A DNA stretch of 64,000 nucleotides, from positions 1-64,000 of the forward strand of contig NZ_CP133089.1 of assembly GCF_030908405.1 (NCBI RefSeq). Direction: 5' to 3'. Below are positions 51,442 to 57,321 of this stretch, one piece after another (the stretch's first letter is position 1; each line of letters starts with the position of its first letter). Made by a program: the position numbers and the translations under genes. The notes under the pieces were generated by a model. The model was not told where the DNA came from and made no database searches. It worked only from the letters and a program-made list of their open reading frames with translations. Source of the stretch: Aminobacterium sp. MB27-C1. GTDB lineage: Bacteria; Synergistota; Synergistia; Synergistales; Aminobacteriaceae.

Positions 51442-53127
51442 CTAGTTTAAGGAATAGGGCCAGCCCATAATGCCACCTTCCAGAATCGCAATGTTTTTAA
51501 ATCCAAGGCGTTTGAGAATGGAGTAGGCATCCCATCCGCGTACGGAAATTTTACAGAAAGCAATAATTTCACGATCTTTTGGCAACTCTGGAGCTTTATC
51601 CCACAAAGCTCCCAACGGAATATGAACGAATTCATAAGGGATGCGTCCCTGACTTTCTAATTCAGGTGCTGTTCGTACGTCGAGAAGAAGTGGCGTCGAA
51701 GATCCTTTCATTCGTTCTTGCAACTGAGAGGGGCTATAACTTTTGAGAAGTCCGTCAAGTTTGTTGCGAAGTACATTTGCGCCATGGGTAAGAGGATCGA
51801 GAGCCGTGGAATAGGGCGGCGCGTAAGCAAGATCTGTATCTGCTAATTGGTCTACCGTAAGTTCTCCAGTTACGGCAGCTGCCAAAACGTCAAGACGTTT
51901 ATCAATTTTTCCCGGACCAAAAAATTGGCCTCCGATTACTTTTCGTGTTTTTCGATCTGCTACAAGTCTGAAAGTAAGCATGCTCGCACCTGGCATGAAG
52001 TGGGGTATATCAGCATCAACTACCGTAACTGCTACTGGATCATATCCGGATTTTCGGGCTTGAGCTTCATTTAAACCGGTTTTTCCTGCTGTATATTCAA
52101 AGAGTTTCATAACGGCTGTACCGATAACGCCATTAAAAGTTGAATTCATGCCAGCTATATTGTCTGCGATTACCCGACCATGACGATTGGCAGCAGACCC
52201 CATAGGTTGCCATGTTGTTGCTCCTGTTAATGTATTTCGTACCTCAACGCAATCCCCTCCAGCATAAATATAGGGATCGCTTGTTCTCATATGTTCATCA
52301 ACAAGAATACCTCCGCGGTCTCCTATATCAAGGCCTGCTTCTTTAGCCATAAGAGTGTTAGGACGAACGCCAATGGCCATTAAAACCATATCTGCATCAA
52401 TGATGCGCTGATCGGTTTTAACTCCCGTAACAACGCCACCTTCCCCCATAATTTCAGTTACTCGTTCTCCACCATAAAAATCAATGTTCTTTTGTGCGAG
52501 AACTTTCATCATAAGGTGACCGAAATCTTCATTCAGCATCGCTGGTAGGGGGGTTTTCAGAACGTCGATAACAGATACGTGAATTCCTCTGTTATGAAGT
52601 GCTTCTACAACTTCCATCCCAATAAGCCCACCACCGATGACGACAGCACTTTTAATAGATCCGCTGTCAATTGCTGCTTTCATGGCCAGGGCGTCTGGCA
52701 TGTTCCAAAGGGTAAAAACTTGTTCCAGATCAGCACCTTGAATGGGGGGTCTTATGGGGCTTGCTCCTGTGGCCAGCACTAGAGTGTCATAAGAGAGCTT
52801 TTTTTCTTCCCCGGAATTCAGGTCAGTAACAGCTACTTTTTTATTTTCGCGATCAATGCGTGTAGCCATATGGCGAACGAGAACATCAACGTGCTTAACC
52901 TTTCGGAAAAATCCTGCGTCGCGTACAACGCCGATAGGCGTAGACGTTAATTCCTTATAGTCTTTTACGACGTCTCCAACGTAATACGGTAATCCACATC
53001 CTGCATAACTTAGAAAATCACCTTTTTCGATCATTGTAACGTCTGCATCAGGATCGATTCTCATAAGACGAGCGGCTGTCTTTGCACCGCACGCGACGCC
53101 ACCTACGATAACTATTTTTTTAGACAC
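51442..53127 (-). CDS. CoA-disulfide reductase with C-terminal rhodanese domain
   Basis: The 561-residue protein fuses a CoA-disulfide/polysulfide reductase with a rhodanese. The N-terminal flavoprotein has IVIVGGVACGAKTAARLMRI, Cys44 in LSYAGCGLPYYVGD, KSAVVIGGGLIGMEVVEALH and YIYAGGDCVEVRNT. The rhodanese part (about residues 455-561) has TPLLLDVRTAPELESQGRIP, FVHIPLGALWD and the catalytic Cys in EIIAFCKISVRGWDAYSIL. Such CoADR-Rhd enzymes use CoA persulfide or elemental sulfur and NADH. The GTG start at 53127 follows AAGGGAGGG. It lies 76 bases downstream of a DUF3343 gene, a predicted sulfur or selenium carrier, so a sulfur-transfer unit is likely. Confidence 0.92.
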   Translation of the reverse strand: MSKKIVIVGGVACGAKTAARLMRIDPDADVTMIEKGDFLSYAGCGLPYYVGDVVKDYKELTSTPIGVVRDAGFFRKVKHVDVLVRHMATRIDRENKKVAVTDLNSGEEKKLSYDTLVLATGASPIRPPIQGADLEQVFTLWNMPDALAMKAAIDSGSIKSAVVIGGGLIGMEVVEALHNRGIHVSVIDVLKTPLPAMLNEDFGHLMMKVLAQKNIDFYGGERVTEIMGEGGVVTGVKTDQRIIDADMVLMAIGVRPNTLMAKEAGLDIGDRGGILVDEHMRTSDPYIYAGGDCVEVRNTLTGATTWQPMGSAANRHGRVIADNIAGMNSTFNGVIGTAVMKLFEYTAGKTGLNEAQARKSGYDPVAVTVVDADIPHFMPGASMLTFRLVADRKTRKVIGGQFFGPGKIDKRLDVLAAAVTGELTVDQLADTDLAYAPPYSTALDPLTHGANVLRNKLDGLLKSYSPSQLQERMKGSSTPLLLDVRTAPELESQGRIPYEFVHIPLGALWDKAPELPKDREIIAFCKISVRGWDAYSILKRLGFKNIAILEGGIMGWPYSLN

Positions 53128-53428: not shown

Positions 53429-53610
53429 AAGAATAAATCCTCCTCAATTCGGTATAAAAACTATGTTATAGAGAATATCATGAAAAGGAATTCTTGACGG
53501 CATGAAAGAATCGTGGTAAGAAAAGAGAAACTTTTCAAAAGAGGTTCGATATTTTGATGATACATTTTGATTTTATAAATAGGAAGGCAATTTCTTTCTT
53601 TTTTGGATTT

Positions 53611-53707
53611 TGGTACCGAAGCGAGGGGGCTTTCTAGCCACTGGCGCAGGTACTGTTTGCGCTTCTAGGCCAGGACCCCCAAAGGCGGGGGCCCTGGCTT
53701 TTTTTTT
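53611..53707 (+). ncRNA. Candidate structured leader RNA with terminator (attenuator/riboswitch-like)
   Basis: In the 313-base spacer before the transporter gene is a GC-rich element unlike its AT-rich surroundings. A 5-bp stem GCGCA/TGCGC (53644-53648 with 53658-53662) holds GGTAC in its loop, which can pair with GTACC at 53613-53617 as a pseudoknot. GAAGCG at 53618-53623 can pair with CGCTTC at 53660-53665 as an alternative. A terminator follows: GCCAGG-A-CCCCC, loop AAAGGC, GGGGG-C-CCTGGC and nine T residues. GGGGG at 53625-53629 could pair with CCCCC at 53676-53680 and so act as an antiterminator. The operon must read through this terminator, 34 bases before its start codon. I do not recognise a known riboswitch class. 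TTGATG and TATAAA near 53554-53579 may be part of the promoter. Confidence 0.6.
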
Positions 53708-53741
53708 CTTTAATAACTTATACTTTTAAGGAGGAGTCTCT

Positions 53742-54923
53742 ATGAATTCAGTAACAGCACTTCTGGTCATAGCGTTGGTCTACGCTATAGGCGATTTTGT
53801 CGCTCAAAAAACAAAGGCCATATGTTCAATGCTTTTTGTGTCAGGCATTATTTTTATGGTGGGATTTTGGTTTGGCATTCCTAAAACTCTCTTTGAAGAT
53901 GCCGTTATTGTTAAGTTTGCCTTGGCCCTTATTCCTACGTTGATGATCCATATGGGAACATTAATGAAACTTCGTGATCTTAAGGATGAATGGAAAACTG
54001 TTATCATTGCTCTTGCTGCTATTGTAGCTGCAGCTATTGCTCTTTTTGTCATTGGATCGCCTATAATAGGAAAACAATTTGCAGTAACTGCAGCAGGACC
54101 AATTTCTGGAGGTGTTGTCGCTACCCTTATTATGAGCGAAGCTGCTAAAGCGAAAGGTCTTGAAACCGTTCTCGTTTTTATAACGTTGCTTCTTGTCCTT
54201 CAGAATTTTGTAGGACTTCCCATCGCTTCTGTCTGTCTTTCCAGAGAAGGTCGACGTTTACGCCAGCGTTTCATAAATGGAGAAGCCTTTGCTGGTGATA
54301 AGGAAGGCAAGGCAAAAAGTAACCCCGAAGAGCCGACATGGAGGTTATTCCCTGCTACTCCGAAAAACTTACAGACACCTTTTATTCTCATCATGAAAGC
54401 AATGCTTGCAGGCTGGCTTGCTGTCATATGTGCCAAGGCTCTCGGCGGTGTGATCAATCAATTTGTTATGGCTCTTATTTTCGGCATTATTTTTTACGAA
54501 ATCGGTTTTCTTGAGCATAAGATTCTCGATAAGGCGAATGCTACCGGACTCGCTCTTTTTGCCCTTTTAGTTCCCATTTTTATGAGCCTAAGCAAAGCAA
54601 CTCCTCAAATGGTTGCTTCATTAATTACGCCTATAGCCATTGCCTTTGTTATTGCCCTTGTCGGAATTATTATTGTTTCGTTTGCAGCATCCAAACTTTT
54701 GGGGTATACATGGGAAATGTGTCTTGCCGTTGGTGTTTGCTGCCTTTTTGGCTTCCCCGGAACTTTTATTGTTTCACAGGAAGTAGCTAACGCCGTAGGA
54801 GAAACACCAGAGGAGAGAGAATATATTTTGACAGGTATTCTTCCTAAAATGCTTGTCTCTGGTTTTACGACAGTGACCATCGCTTCAGTATTCCTTGCGG
54901 GATTCTTGGTGAAACTTCTTTAA
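53742..54923 (+). CDS. Predicted membrane transporter, DUF3100-like
   Basis: The 393-residue integral membrane protein has about ten helices in two halves joined by a basic cytoplasmic loop (residues about 165-205: CLSREGRRLRQRFING and KEGKAKSNPEEPTWRLFPAT). It starts with ALLVIALVYAIGDFVAQKTK and contains TAAGPISGGVVATLIMSEAA in the first half and GVCCLFGFPGTFIVSQEVAN in the second, which suggests an inverted-repeat carrier. It resembles the DUF3100 group; this assignment is from memory and moderate. AAGGAGGAG precedes the ATG. It leads an operon with an M20D amidohydrolase and a D-threonine-aldolase-type enzyme, so an N-acyl amino acid or D-amino-acid derivative is a plausible cargo. Confidence 0.6.
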   Translation: MNSVTALLVIALVYAIGDFVAQKTKAICSMLFVSGIIFMVGFWFGIPKTLFEDAVIVKFALALIPTLMIHMGTLMKLRDLKDEWKTVIIALAAIVAAAIALFVIGSPIIGKQFAVTAAGPISGGVVATLIMSEAAKAKGLETVLVFITLLLVLQNFVGLPIASVCLSREGRRLRQRFINGEAFAGDKEGKAKSNPEEPTWRLFPATPKNLQTPFILIMKAMLAGWLAVICAKALGGVINQFVMALIFGIIFYEIGFLEHKILDKANATGLALFALLVPIFMSLSKATPQMVASLITPIAIAFVIALVGIIIVSFAASKLLGYTWEMCLAVGVCCLFGFPGTFIVSQEVANAVGETPEEREYILTGILPKMLVSGFTTVTIASVFLAGFLVKLL

Positions 54924-54942
54924 TTTGAAAGGAGCTATAACG

Positions 54943-56142
54943 GTGAATAAAGAAAAAGTATGTGCTTTAGCCTCTGAGATAGAGCAGAAAGTTATAGAGT
55001 TTCGTCATGATTTTCATGCTCACCCAGAGCTGTCATGGAAAGAAGAAGAGACTTCAAAAAAGATTGAATCTGTTTTGCGTGAATTGGGCTATGAGAATAT
55101 CCGCCGTGGTTTTGGTGGTACAGGGTCAGGTGTAACCGCAGATCTTACAGGAAAAGAAGATGGCCCCATGATTGCTCTTCGAGCAGATATAGACGCATTG
55201 CCTCTTAAGGAAGCTGTTGACGATCCATGGAAATCTACGTGTGATGGAGTTATGCATGCATGCGGACACGATGCTCATGCCGCTATCCTTTTAGGGGTTG
55301 CCAATGTACTTGCCTCTTTAAAGAACGAGTTGCCAGGTCGAGTTCGACTTATTTTCCAGCCAGCAGAAGAATCTGGAGTGCGCTCTGGAGCAAAGCAGCT
55401 TCGAGAGGAAGGGGTTCTTGACGGTGTCGATGGTATTTGCGGTCTTCACGTTTGGAGCACTCTTGAAGCGGGAAAGGTTGGTTTTCGTAGTGGAGCAATG
55501 ATGGCCTCTGCCGATATTTGGGAAATAGAAGTTAAAGGACGGGGAGGACACGGCTCACGGCCTCATGAAGCTATTGATCCGACTATCGCTGCTGCTACCA
55601 TTATTACAACAGCTCAGACAGTGGTGAGTCGAGAAATAGATCCTCTGGAAACTGTAGTGTTAAGCGTAGGAAAAGTCGAATCGGGAAGTGCTCCCAACAT
55701 TATTCCTGAAACAGCTTATATTCAGGGGAACGTTCGTACAACAAATCCTGAGATCAGAGCAAGTATGGGCGACCGGATACGCCGAATTGCAGAAGGAATT
55801 GCTTCTGCTCTTCGTTGCGAGGTTAAAGTAGATTTTATCCCTGTCTACCCTGTAACTGTGAATGATGAAGCAATGGTAAACATCCTTAAAGGTGTCACAG
55901 GAAAAATAATGGGGGAAGAGGCTCTTGAAGAACTTCCCATAGTTATGGGATCAGAAGATTTCAGTTTCTACCAGGAAGAGGTTCCCGGAGTCATGTTCTT
56001 CCTTGGAATGGGGGACTCGGAAAAAGGGACAGAGGCGCAGCATCATAATCCGAAGTTCCGAACGAATGACGAAGTTTTAGTTAATGGAGTTGCGTTATTA
56101 TCGTCTTTTGCCTGTCATTTTCTTGAGACCTTCAAAAAGTAG
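54943..56142 (+). CDS. M20D amidohydrolase (HipO/IAA-amino-acid hydrolase type)
   Basis: The 399-residue enzyme hydrolyses N-acyl amino acids or related amides with two metal ions. Motifs in order are FRHDFHAHPELSWKEEETSK, ALRADIDALPLKE, VMHACGHDAHAAILLGVANV (metal-binding Cys and His residues), LIFQPAEESGVRSGAKQLRE (catalytic Glu-Glu), ICGLHVWSTLEAGKVGFRSG and GRGGHGSRPHEAIDP (dimerisation domain), with IVMGSEDFSFYQEEVPGVMF near the C-terminus. GTG 54943 follows AAGGAG. It lies 19 bases after the transporter gene and 45 before the PLP enzyme, all on one transcript. Deacylation of an imported compound before PLP-dependent cleavage is the likely pathway order. Confidence 0.92.
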   Translation: MNKEKVCALASEIEQKVIEFRHDFHAHPELSWKEEETSKKIESVLRELGYENIRRGFGGTGSGVTADLTGKEDGPMIALRADIDALPLKEAVDDPWKSTCDGVMHACGHDAHAAILLGVANVLASLKNELPGRVRLIFQPAEESGVRSGAKQLREEGVLDGVDGICGLHVWSTLEAGKVGFRSGAMMASADIWEIEVKGRGGHGSRPHEAIDPTIAAATIITTAQTVVSREIDPLETVVLSVGKVESGSAPNIIPETAYIQGNVRTTNPEIRASMGDRIRRIAEGIASALRCEVKVDFIPVYPVTVNDEAMVNILKGVTGKIMGEEALEELPIVMGSEDFSFYQEEVPGVMFFLGMGDSEKGTEAQHHNPKFRTNDEVLVNGVALLSSFACHFLETFKK

Positions 56143-56187
56143 AGGGGATTAGAGAAACGCTTTTTGAAGAAAGATGAGGTGGAAAAT

Positions 56188-57321
56188 ATGATGAGGTGTC
56201 TTCATGAACCGTTCAGAGGTTGTCAGGTTATGGATATTGATACGCCATCGCTTCTTGTAGATCTTGATGTTATGGAGAGAAACCTTCACTGGATGCAACA
56301 AAAAGCGCAAAATGCCGGTGTCTCTCTCCGTCCTCATATAAAGACACACAGAACGCCAGATATTGCCAAAAAGCAACTGATTGCTGGAGCGAAGGGAATT
56401 ACAGTGGCCAAACTTGGAGAGGCTGAAGTTATGGCTGCTGCGGGGATAACTGACATTTTTATTGCTAACGAAATTGTTGGAGATATAAAGATGGATCGTC
56501 TTCTCGCTTTGGCTCGTAAAACAAATCTTGCTGTTGGTGTCGATAGCGCTGAACATATTAAGATGCTTGCAGAAACCTTTGACGGGGAACCTCATCCCCT
56601 CAATGTCATGATAGACATAGATACTGGATATCATCGTACCGGTGTTTTTTCAAAAGAGACAGCCCTTGAATTGGCAAAGCTTATTCGTTATAGGGATTCC
56701 GTTACATTGATGGGAATTTTTACCCATGACGGTCAAAGTTATAATGCCGAGTCATTATCTGCGATCAGGGCAATTTCTCAACAAAGTCAAAGTCAAATGC
56801 TTGAAACGGCAGAGTACATTAGGAGTGTGGGTATTCCCGTAGAAGTTGTCAGTATAGGATCTACGCCCTCTCTTCTCGTTTCAGAGATTTTGGCGGGAGT
56901 TACCGAAATCAGGCCGGGTACGTATATATTCTTAGACGCTGATCAGGCAGGAATTCTTGGAACCTATGACCATTGCGCGCTCTCTGTTCTTGCTACGGTA
57001 ATAAGTCGTCCTGCTCCTGATAGAGTTGTACTTGATGCTGGAACAAAAGCTCTTACATACTACACTCATCATGGAGGAATGACATCAAGCCACGGGTTTG
57101 GCGTGTTGAAGAATCGTCCATCTGTTACATTGCAGAGTTTGTCAGACGAACACGCTCTCTTTACGCCCCCTCACGATATGTCTTTTGAAATCGGGGATAA
57201 AGTGGAAATAATACCTAACCATGCCTGCCCTACATGTAATCTATATTCGGTTATTTATGGGGTGAGGAATGGCGAAGTAGCAGAAGAGTACGAAATTTTG
57301 GCCAGAGGAATGTCTCGATAA
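56188..57321 (+). CDS. DSD1/D-threonine aldolase-family PLP enzyme
   Basis: The 377-residue protein is a fold-type III PLP enzyme of the D-threonine aldolase/D-serine dehydratase/D-3-hydroxyaspartate group. The N-terminal alanine-racemase-like barrel has DIDTPSLLVDLDVMERNLHW and the PLP Lys in LRPHIKTHRTPDIA, with IDTGYHRTGVFS further on. The C-terminal domain has the metal site of this family, NHACPTCNLY, and a TSSHGFGVLKN loop. Enzymes of this kind cleave beta-hydroxy D-amino acids or eliminate water from D-serine. ATG 56188 follows GAGGTGG. It is the third gene of the attenuated operon and a terminator follows it. Confidence 0.9.
   Translation: MMRCLHEPFRGCQVMDIDTPSLLVDLDVMERNLHWMQQKAQNAGVSLRPHIKTHRTPDIAKKQLIAGAKGITVAKLGEAEVMAAAGITDIFIANEIVGDIKMDRLLALARKTNLAVGVDSAEHIKMLAETFDGEPHPLNVMIDIDTGYHRTGVFSKETALELAKLIRYRDSVTLMGIFTHDGQSYNAESLSAIRAISQQSQSQMLETAEYIRSVGIPVEVVSIGSTPSLLVSEILAGVTEIRPGTYIFLDADQAGILGTYDHCALSVLATVISRPAPDRVVLDAGTKALTYYTHHGGMTSSHGFGVLKNRPSVTLQSLSDEHALFTPPHDMSFEIGDKVEIIPNHACPTCNLYSVIYGVRNGEVAEEYEILARGMSR

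Follow-up and report, generated by a model that had tools for sequence, protein, structure and literature searches.

At position 53742 of the window (the whole 64,000-nucleotide stretch of DNA that we analysed), an operon for a transporter, an amidohydrolase and a PLP enzyme begins just behind a structured leader (Table 1), and this raises the question of how the leader controls the operon and which signal it senses. The first-pass annotation had described a GC-rich element ending in a strong terminator, several competing pairings and a transcription-attenuation layout operated by a riboswitch or a protein, with a ligand probably related to the operon's substrate. The element, the terminator and all of the pairings are present in the sequence, and attenuation by mutually exclusive structures, including the competition of GGGGG for the terminator's CCCCC, was borne out, whereas riboswitch or protein control was not. 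The annotation had overlooked an open reading frame (ORF) that spans the 5' half of the structured element and has its stop codon inside it. We conclude that the leader is very probably a ribosome-mediated transcription attenuator of the trp/phe type that senses charged aromatic tRNA, because its ORF carries the run FFF-G-FWY and the corresponding residues in the ORFs of relatives match the downstream genes; on the same evidence, charged aromatic tRNA replaces the substrate-related ligand. This reading is wholly computational, with the ORF, alternative structures, conservation and leader-gene match computed, and the start site, stalling, effect in vivo and operon's substrate inferred.

Table 1. 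Coordinates of the leader and operon features in the window
Feature	Position	Strand	Description
Promoter-like sequence	53494-53522	+	TTGACG, 17 nt, TAAGAA; TGG before the -10
Shine-Dalgarno-like AGAGG of leader ORF	53540-53544	+	GAGG kept in all three species
Leader ORF	53557-53637	+	MIHFDFINRKAISFFFGFWYRSEGAF*; 26 codons, stop TAG 53635-53637
Control codons	53596-53616	+	TTC TTT TTT GGA TTT TGG TAC (F14-F15-F16-G17-F18-W19-Y20)
1:2 hairpin	53612-53654	+	Minimum free energy structure, closed by GGTACC 53612-53617 / GGTACT 53649-53654
2:3 antiterminator	53625-53680	+	Minimum free energy structure of RNA free of the stalled ribosome
3:4 intrinsic terminator	53669-53707	+	11 pairs, nine T
First gene	53742-54923	+	393-aa membrane transporter, predicted CitS-like (2HCT/elevator) fold
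Second gene	54925-56142	+	M20 amidohydrolase; PF01546 and TIGR01891 above cut-off
Third gene	56164-57321	+	PLP enzyme, D-threonine aldolase-like; Ala_racemase_N and D-ser_dehydrat (Pfam, above cut-off)

Alternative structures of the leader RNA

The terminator stem (53669-53698; GCCAGG-A-CCCCC / GGGGG-C-CCTGGC) is built around a single A.C mismatch and is directly followed by its T run at 53699-53707, with the ATG of the first gene 34 nt beyond. Besides the pairs that close the 1:2 hairpin, GAAGCG (53618-53623) is complementary to CGCTTC (53660-53665), and GGGGG (53625-53629) to the terminator's CCCCC (53676-53680). This last pairing forms the antiterminator together with TTCT 53632-53635/AGGA 53672-53675 and GCC 53637-53639/GGC 53668-53670, around an inner hairpin at 53643-53663. 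Compared with shuffled sequences, the whole element gave a folding z of -2.8 (1 of 200 shuffles was as good), and the element minus its terminator gave a z of -0.6, not distinct from shuffles. The upstream part thus had no folding signal of its own, and comparison with relatives had to decide its relevance. A DNA similarity search found leaders about 80% identical in two congeners (G001 and G002) and reached no further. The same 1:2 hairpin also folds in G001, where GGGGG/CCCCC is replaced by GGAGG/CCTCC, Watson-Crick in the antiterminator and mere wobble in the terminator.

We searched the leader against Rfam at gathering and permissive thresholds. The results showed no matching family, known riboswitch classes included, with only chance-level matches at E up to 10. 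No Rfam T-box match was found in the window, and representative relatives of the leader matched no Rfam class either.

A plausibly translatable leader ORF and the predicted effect of ribosome position

The control run consists largely of aromatic codons (6 of 7). Phe, Trp and Tyr make up 9 of the 25 residues of the leader peptide, against a background of 6.9% for neighbouring proteins (P 2.5e-5); a comparable run occurred in only 0.1% of open base-shuffles. The orthologous leader ORFs of G001 and G002 (MKKSLVREFFSFFFAYWYPCEEAL and MNLSLFISFVFSFFFFAFWYRRGGAF, respectively) carry the control runs FFFAYWY and FFFFAFWY. The stop lies at the same place in the three species and is encoded by three different codons, TAG in the window and TAA and TGA in G001 and G002. 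The Shine-Dalgarno-like AGAGG lies 12 nt before ATG 53557, which appears long, and 9 nt before the in-frame TTG 53554, an alternative start at which the spacing would be good. With a start codon and a Shine-Dalgarno site, the ORF is plausibly translatable, as a leader-peptide attenuator demands.

Both congeners have the promoter-like sequence as well (TAAGAA, TATGAA), again with a 17-nt spacer, and its position would place the transcription start near 53529. Were the hairpin merely the end of another transcript, the operon would have to start downstream of 53707, where a TATACT-like hexamer indeed lies at 53719-53724. We consider this highly unlikely. The nearest long upstream gene (51442-53127) runs in the opposite direction, so the hairpin has no known transcript to terminate, and the congeners lack the TATACT but retain TTGACG-17-TAAGAA/TATGAA ahead of the leader ORF.

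We then placed a ribosome on the leader, taking its 3' edge as A-site +13, and folded the part of the RNA that stays free, as far as the terminator's 5' arm. An A-site at F14 left GGTACC exposed, and the 1:2 hairpin formed instead of the antiterminator. With the A-site at F16, F18 or W19, all or part of GGTACC was covered and the free RNA folded into the antiterminator (-23.1 kcal/mol); the 1:2 hairpin did not form at F16 or beyond. A ribosome at the leader stop codon left only the terminator (-25.7 kcal/mol). In full-length folds with region 4 present, the terminator was always preferred, so antitermination has to arise kinetically, as it does in classical attenuators. Across 77 loci, the ORF-end segment paired more strongly with the terminator arm of its own leader (-26.2) than with an arm swapped in from another leader (-21.06, sd 0.37), a trend kept in most gene classes. 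The lowest-energy pairing of the window in this test was GAAGCG/CGCTTC, not GGGGG/CCCCC, so the exact antiterminator rests on ribosome-position folding and on the three species. In these models, antiterminator and terminator are mutually exclusive, and the position of the ribosome would set the outcome.

In the proposed mechanism, transcription would start near the predicted site and a ribosome would translate the leader ORF just behind RNA polymerase. With ample charged tRNA-Phe, tRNA-Trp and tRNA-Tyr, the ribosome would get to the stop codon and cover the segment-2 strand, whereupon the terminator would form and transcription would stop. When aromatic aminoacyl-tRNA is scarce, the ribosome would stall at F16-F18-W19 and cover GGTACC; the 1:2 hairpin could not form, the 2:3 antiterminator would take the terminator's 5' arm, and the operon would be transcribed. 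If the leader were not translated at all, the 1:2 hairpin would form and protect the terminator, and termination would prevail.

Related leaders across Synergistota and the genes behind them

Members of this transporter family from other families of the order have leaders that share the core GYGUGGGA-N13-CCGACGY, with a strong terminator behind it. This sequence is one main form of the core, which overlaps the last codons of the ORF; the window's own copy deviates from it. A covariation-type search, which had been proposed as a check, was carried out with a covariance model (R1) for which eight of these leaders were used, none of them from the window's genus, and it detected the window leader at E 1.4e-6. 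At E<=1e-5, 68 of 188 Synergistota genomes contained an R1 match. None of the 149 Spirochaetota genomes did, in a control run at one threshold and with strict filters, which Synergistota members pass, and with no positive control within the phylum. Nearly all matches contain a short ORF with a run of particular residues; it ends in the hairpin and usually follows a Shine-Dalgarno site. A Shine-Dalgarno-preceded ORF ending in the hairpin was found in 66 of 75 relatives, compared with 4.5% of dinucleotide shuffles. Some matches (L154, L159, L160 and L164) were false positives, with a terminator alone and no matching leader, and matches in the own genome at E>=0.03 showed no plausible leader.

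The genes downstream of the relatives were clustered and then named. Leaders such as VVVLVLIS (Val/Leu/Ile) precede ilvN-ilvC (17 loci), SLSLLLLG (Leu) precedes leuA (3 loci) and AIIIIT (Ile) precedes threonine dehydratase (2 loci). The Met leaders MMMC and MSMMMC stand before metQ/metN (8 loci) and O-acetylhomoserine sulfhydrylase (1 locus), respectively. Aromatic runs were found before paaK for phenylacetate-CoA ligase (20 loci, FFxYYY-type, Phe/Tyr) and sodium:solute symporters (5 loci, LFWYGYYF-type), and aromatic or leucine-rich runs before 6 unnamed membrane proteins, which presumably resemble YkvI-type permeases. The window's own transporter family (15 loci) has FFFGFWY, FYFSFYY, FYFWY and WW, with mixed Y/I/L in a few. 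Control codons thus match the metabolism of the regulated genes in relatives of known function, and the residue-gene match of 13.6 was never reached in 20000 shuffles of the gene labels (mean 8.0, sd 0.72), although related genomes inflate the permutation tests, whose loci are less independent than they appear.

These leaders bear on both remaining explanations. A metabolite-binding riboswitch, whose core would bind a small molecule and control the terminator, would account for a core conserved in sequence and structure across families and for a terminator and alternative pairing like those of an expression platform. We judge it very improbable: the same core stands before ilvNC, leuA, metQ/metN, paaK and transporters, to which no single ligand fits, it is crossed by an ORF whose residues match the downstream gene, and neither the missing Rfam match nor the deviating copy of the window favours it. 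The probability of an RNA-binding antiterminator or repressor protein acting on the hairpin is slighter still; a hairpin with a conserved internal loop upstream of several genes might well be a protein site, but a common protein leaves the gene-dependent ORF residues and the kept stop position unexplained. The conserved internal-loop core was the candidate pursued first, as a riboswitch aptamer, and it was dropped once the R1 matches could be recognised as leader peptides of the ilv, met and leu types.

We lean somewhat towards a Synergistota-wide set of leader-peptide attenuators of common descent, a reading drawn from sequence comparison. The RNA core would have been kept and the control codons swapped (Phe/Tyr/Trp, Val/Leu/Ile, Leu, Ile, Met). 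The resulting modular sensor would also act on paaK and on uncharacterised transporters and so give a hint of their substrates.

Further leaders were observed in the window's own genome. Before trpB, ATG TTC TGG TGG TGG CGC AGA TAG (MFWWWRR*) is followed by a hairpin and a T run (L185:7822-7845; G000:C1, about 1607321). This leader was missed by R1. It is a plain trp-type leader peptide with a layout unlike the window's and independently makes attenuation by leader peptides plausible in this organism. An attenuator of the FFxYYY type precedes paaK (L117, G000:C1:1605007-1605106), as at 19 other loci; induction of paaK by aromatic shortage, if true, would point to a role of PaaK in an aryl-acid route to Phe/Tyr, not in degradation. 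The aromatic leaders SFYFYFWF (L169, G000:C1:764366-764471) and FFYYWF (L103, 848311-848412) precede a sodium:solute-symporter-like protein and an unnamed multi-pass membrane protein, respectively, both candidate aromatic amino-acid transporters. Separately, VVVxLII-type attenuators stand before a tiny ORF of about 50-90 aa (L111, L112, L114, L137 and L145; in the own genome at G000:C1:2166597-2166702, minus strand) with the conserved C-terminus R-G-P-F-E-G-[YF]-R*. Two examples gave no meaningful Pfam match, and the product may be a small uncharacterised protein under branched-chain amino-acid control.

The operon and comparison with known attenuators

The transporter matched no Pfam family even at E<=10, so the former label of a DUF3100-type transporter was not confirmed, and it received no name from NCBIfam. 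Its AlphaFold model (pLDDT 82.6) resembled the sodium-citrate symporter CitS in Foldseek (E 1e-5, TM 0.62-0.65, 17-18% identity). At most of the loci examined, the M20 amidohydrolase gene is found near the transporter gene, and the PLP enzyme gene adjoins the M20 gene in G001 and G002 also. With an aromatic attenuator on the operon, the most economical reading is that it probably supplies aromatic amino acids, e.g. by uptake and hydrolysis of an N-acylated or peptide-like precursor. Two other genera have mixed leaders before this transporter family (PYIIIL, L076 in G043; YFEIVIYL, L075 in G052), so the substrate assignment is uncertain; sensing may have moved to another amino acid, or the range of substrates may be wider, and for some genera the leaders point to a broader hydrophobic range. 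Aromatic amino-acid shortage as the signal makes the substrate of the CitS-fold transporter and the M20 amidohydrolase testable. More widely, RNA-based amino-acid control would extend across Synergistota, a phylum of amino-acid fermenters, and control codons could serve to annotate the function of other genes, among them paaK and those for sodium:solute symporters and unnamed permeases.

Leader-peptide attenuation is a textbook mechanism, and the enterobacterial pheA, pheST and trp leaders are Phe/Trp leader-peptide attenuators. The window leader shares with them a short ORF with a run of the regulated residue, the 1:2, 2:3 and 3:4 hairpins and an intrinsic terminator just before the first gene. 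It differs in that its operon encodes a transporter and an amidohydrolase rather than biosynthetic enzymes, its run mixes Phe, Trp and Tyr, the 5' strand of its antiterminator begins inside the ORF, and it has no Rfam match.

The VVVLVLIS and SLSLLLLG leaders of relatives before ilvNC and leuA resemble the ilv/leu attenuators of Proteobacteria and Corynebacterium (e.g. PMC10272879, PMC1262725); they differ in belonging to another phylum and in using one RNA core across amino-acid specificities. The uORFC-13-1 motif before aroF, confined to Acholeplasma (PMC8632094), and two shikimate-gene uORF motifs (PMC6429828) likewise place a uORF with Phe (and Tyr) codons beside a terminator; the main text on the shikimate motifs gives no taxon, and overlap with Synergistota is possible. 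Novel His leader-peptide attenuators in Firmicutes (PMC9413887) were similarly found by comparative genomics outside Proteobacteria, but for Synergistetes that study reported the HisR repressor, not attenuators. The main text of a Thermovirga lienii ncRNA screen names no such family, and a full-text literature search, restricted to the main texts of openly available papers, returned no description of leader-peptide attenuation in Synergistetes/Synergistota. What looks new is not the mechanism, which is known, but the phylum-wide set and the pointer to the substrate of the CitS-fold transporter.
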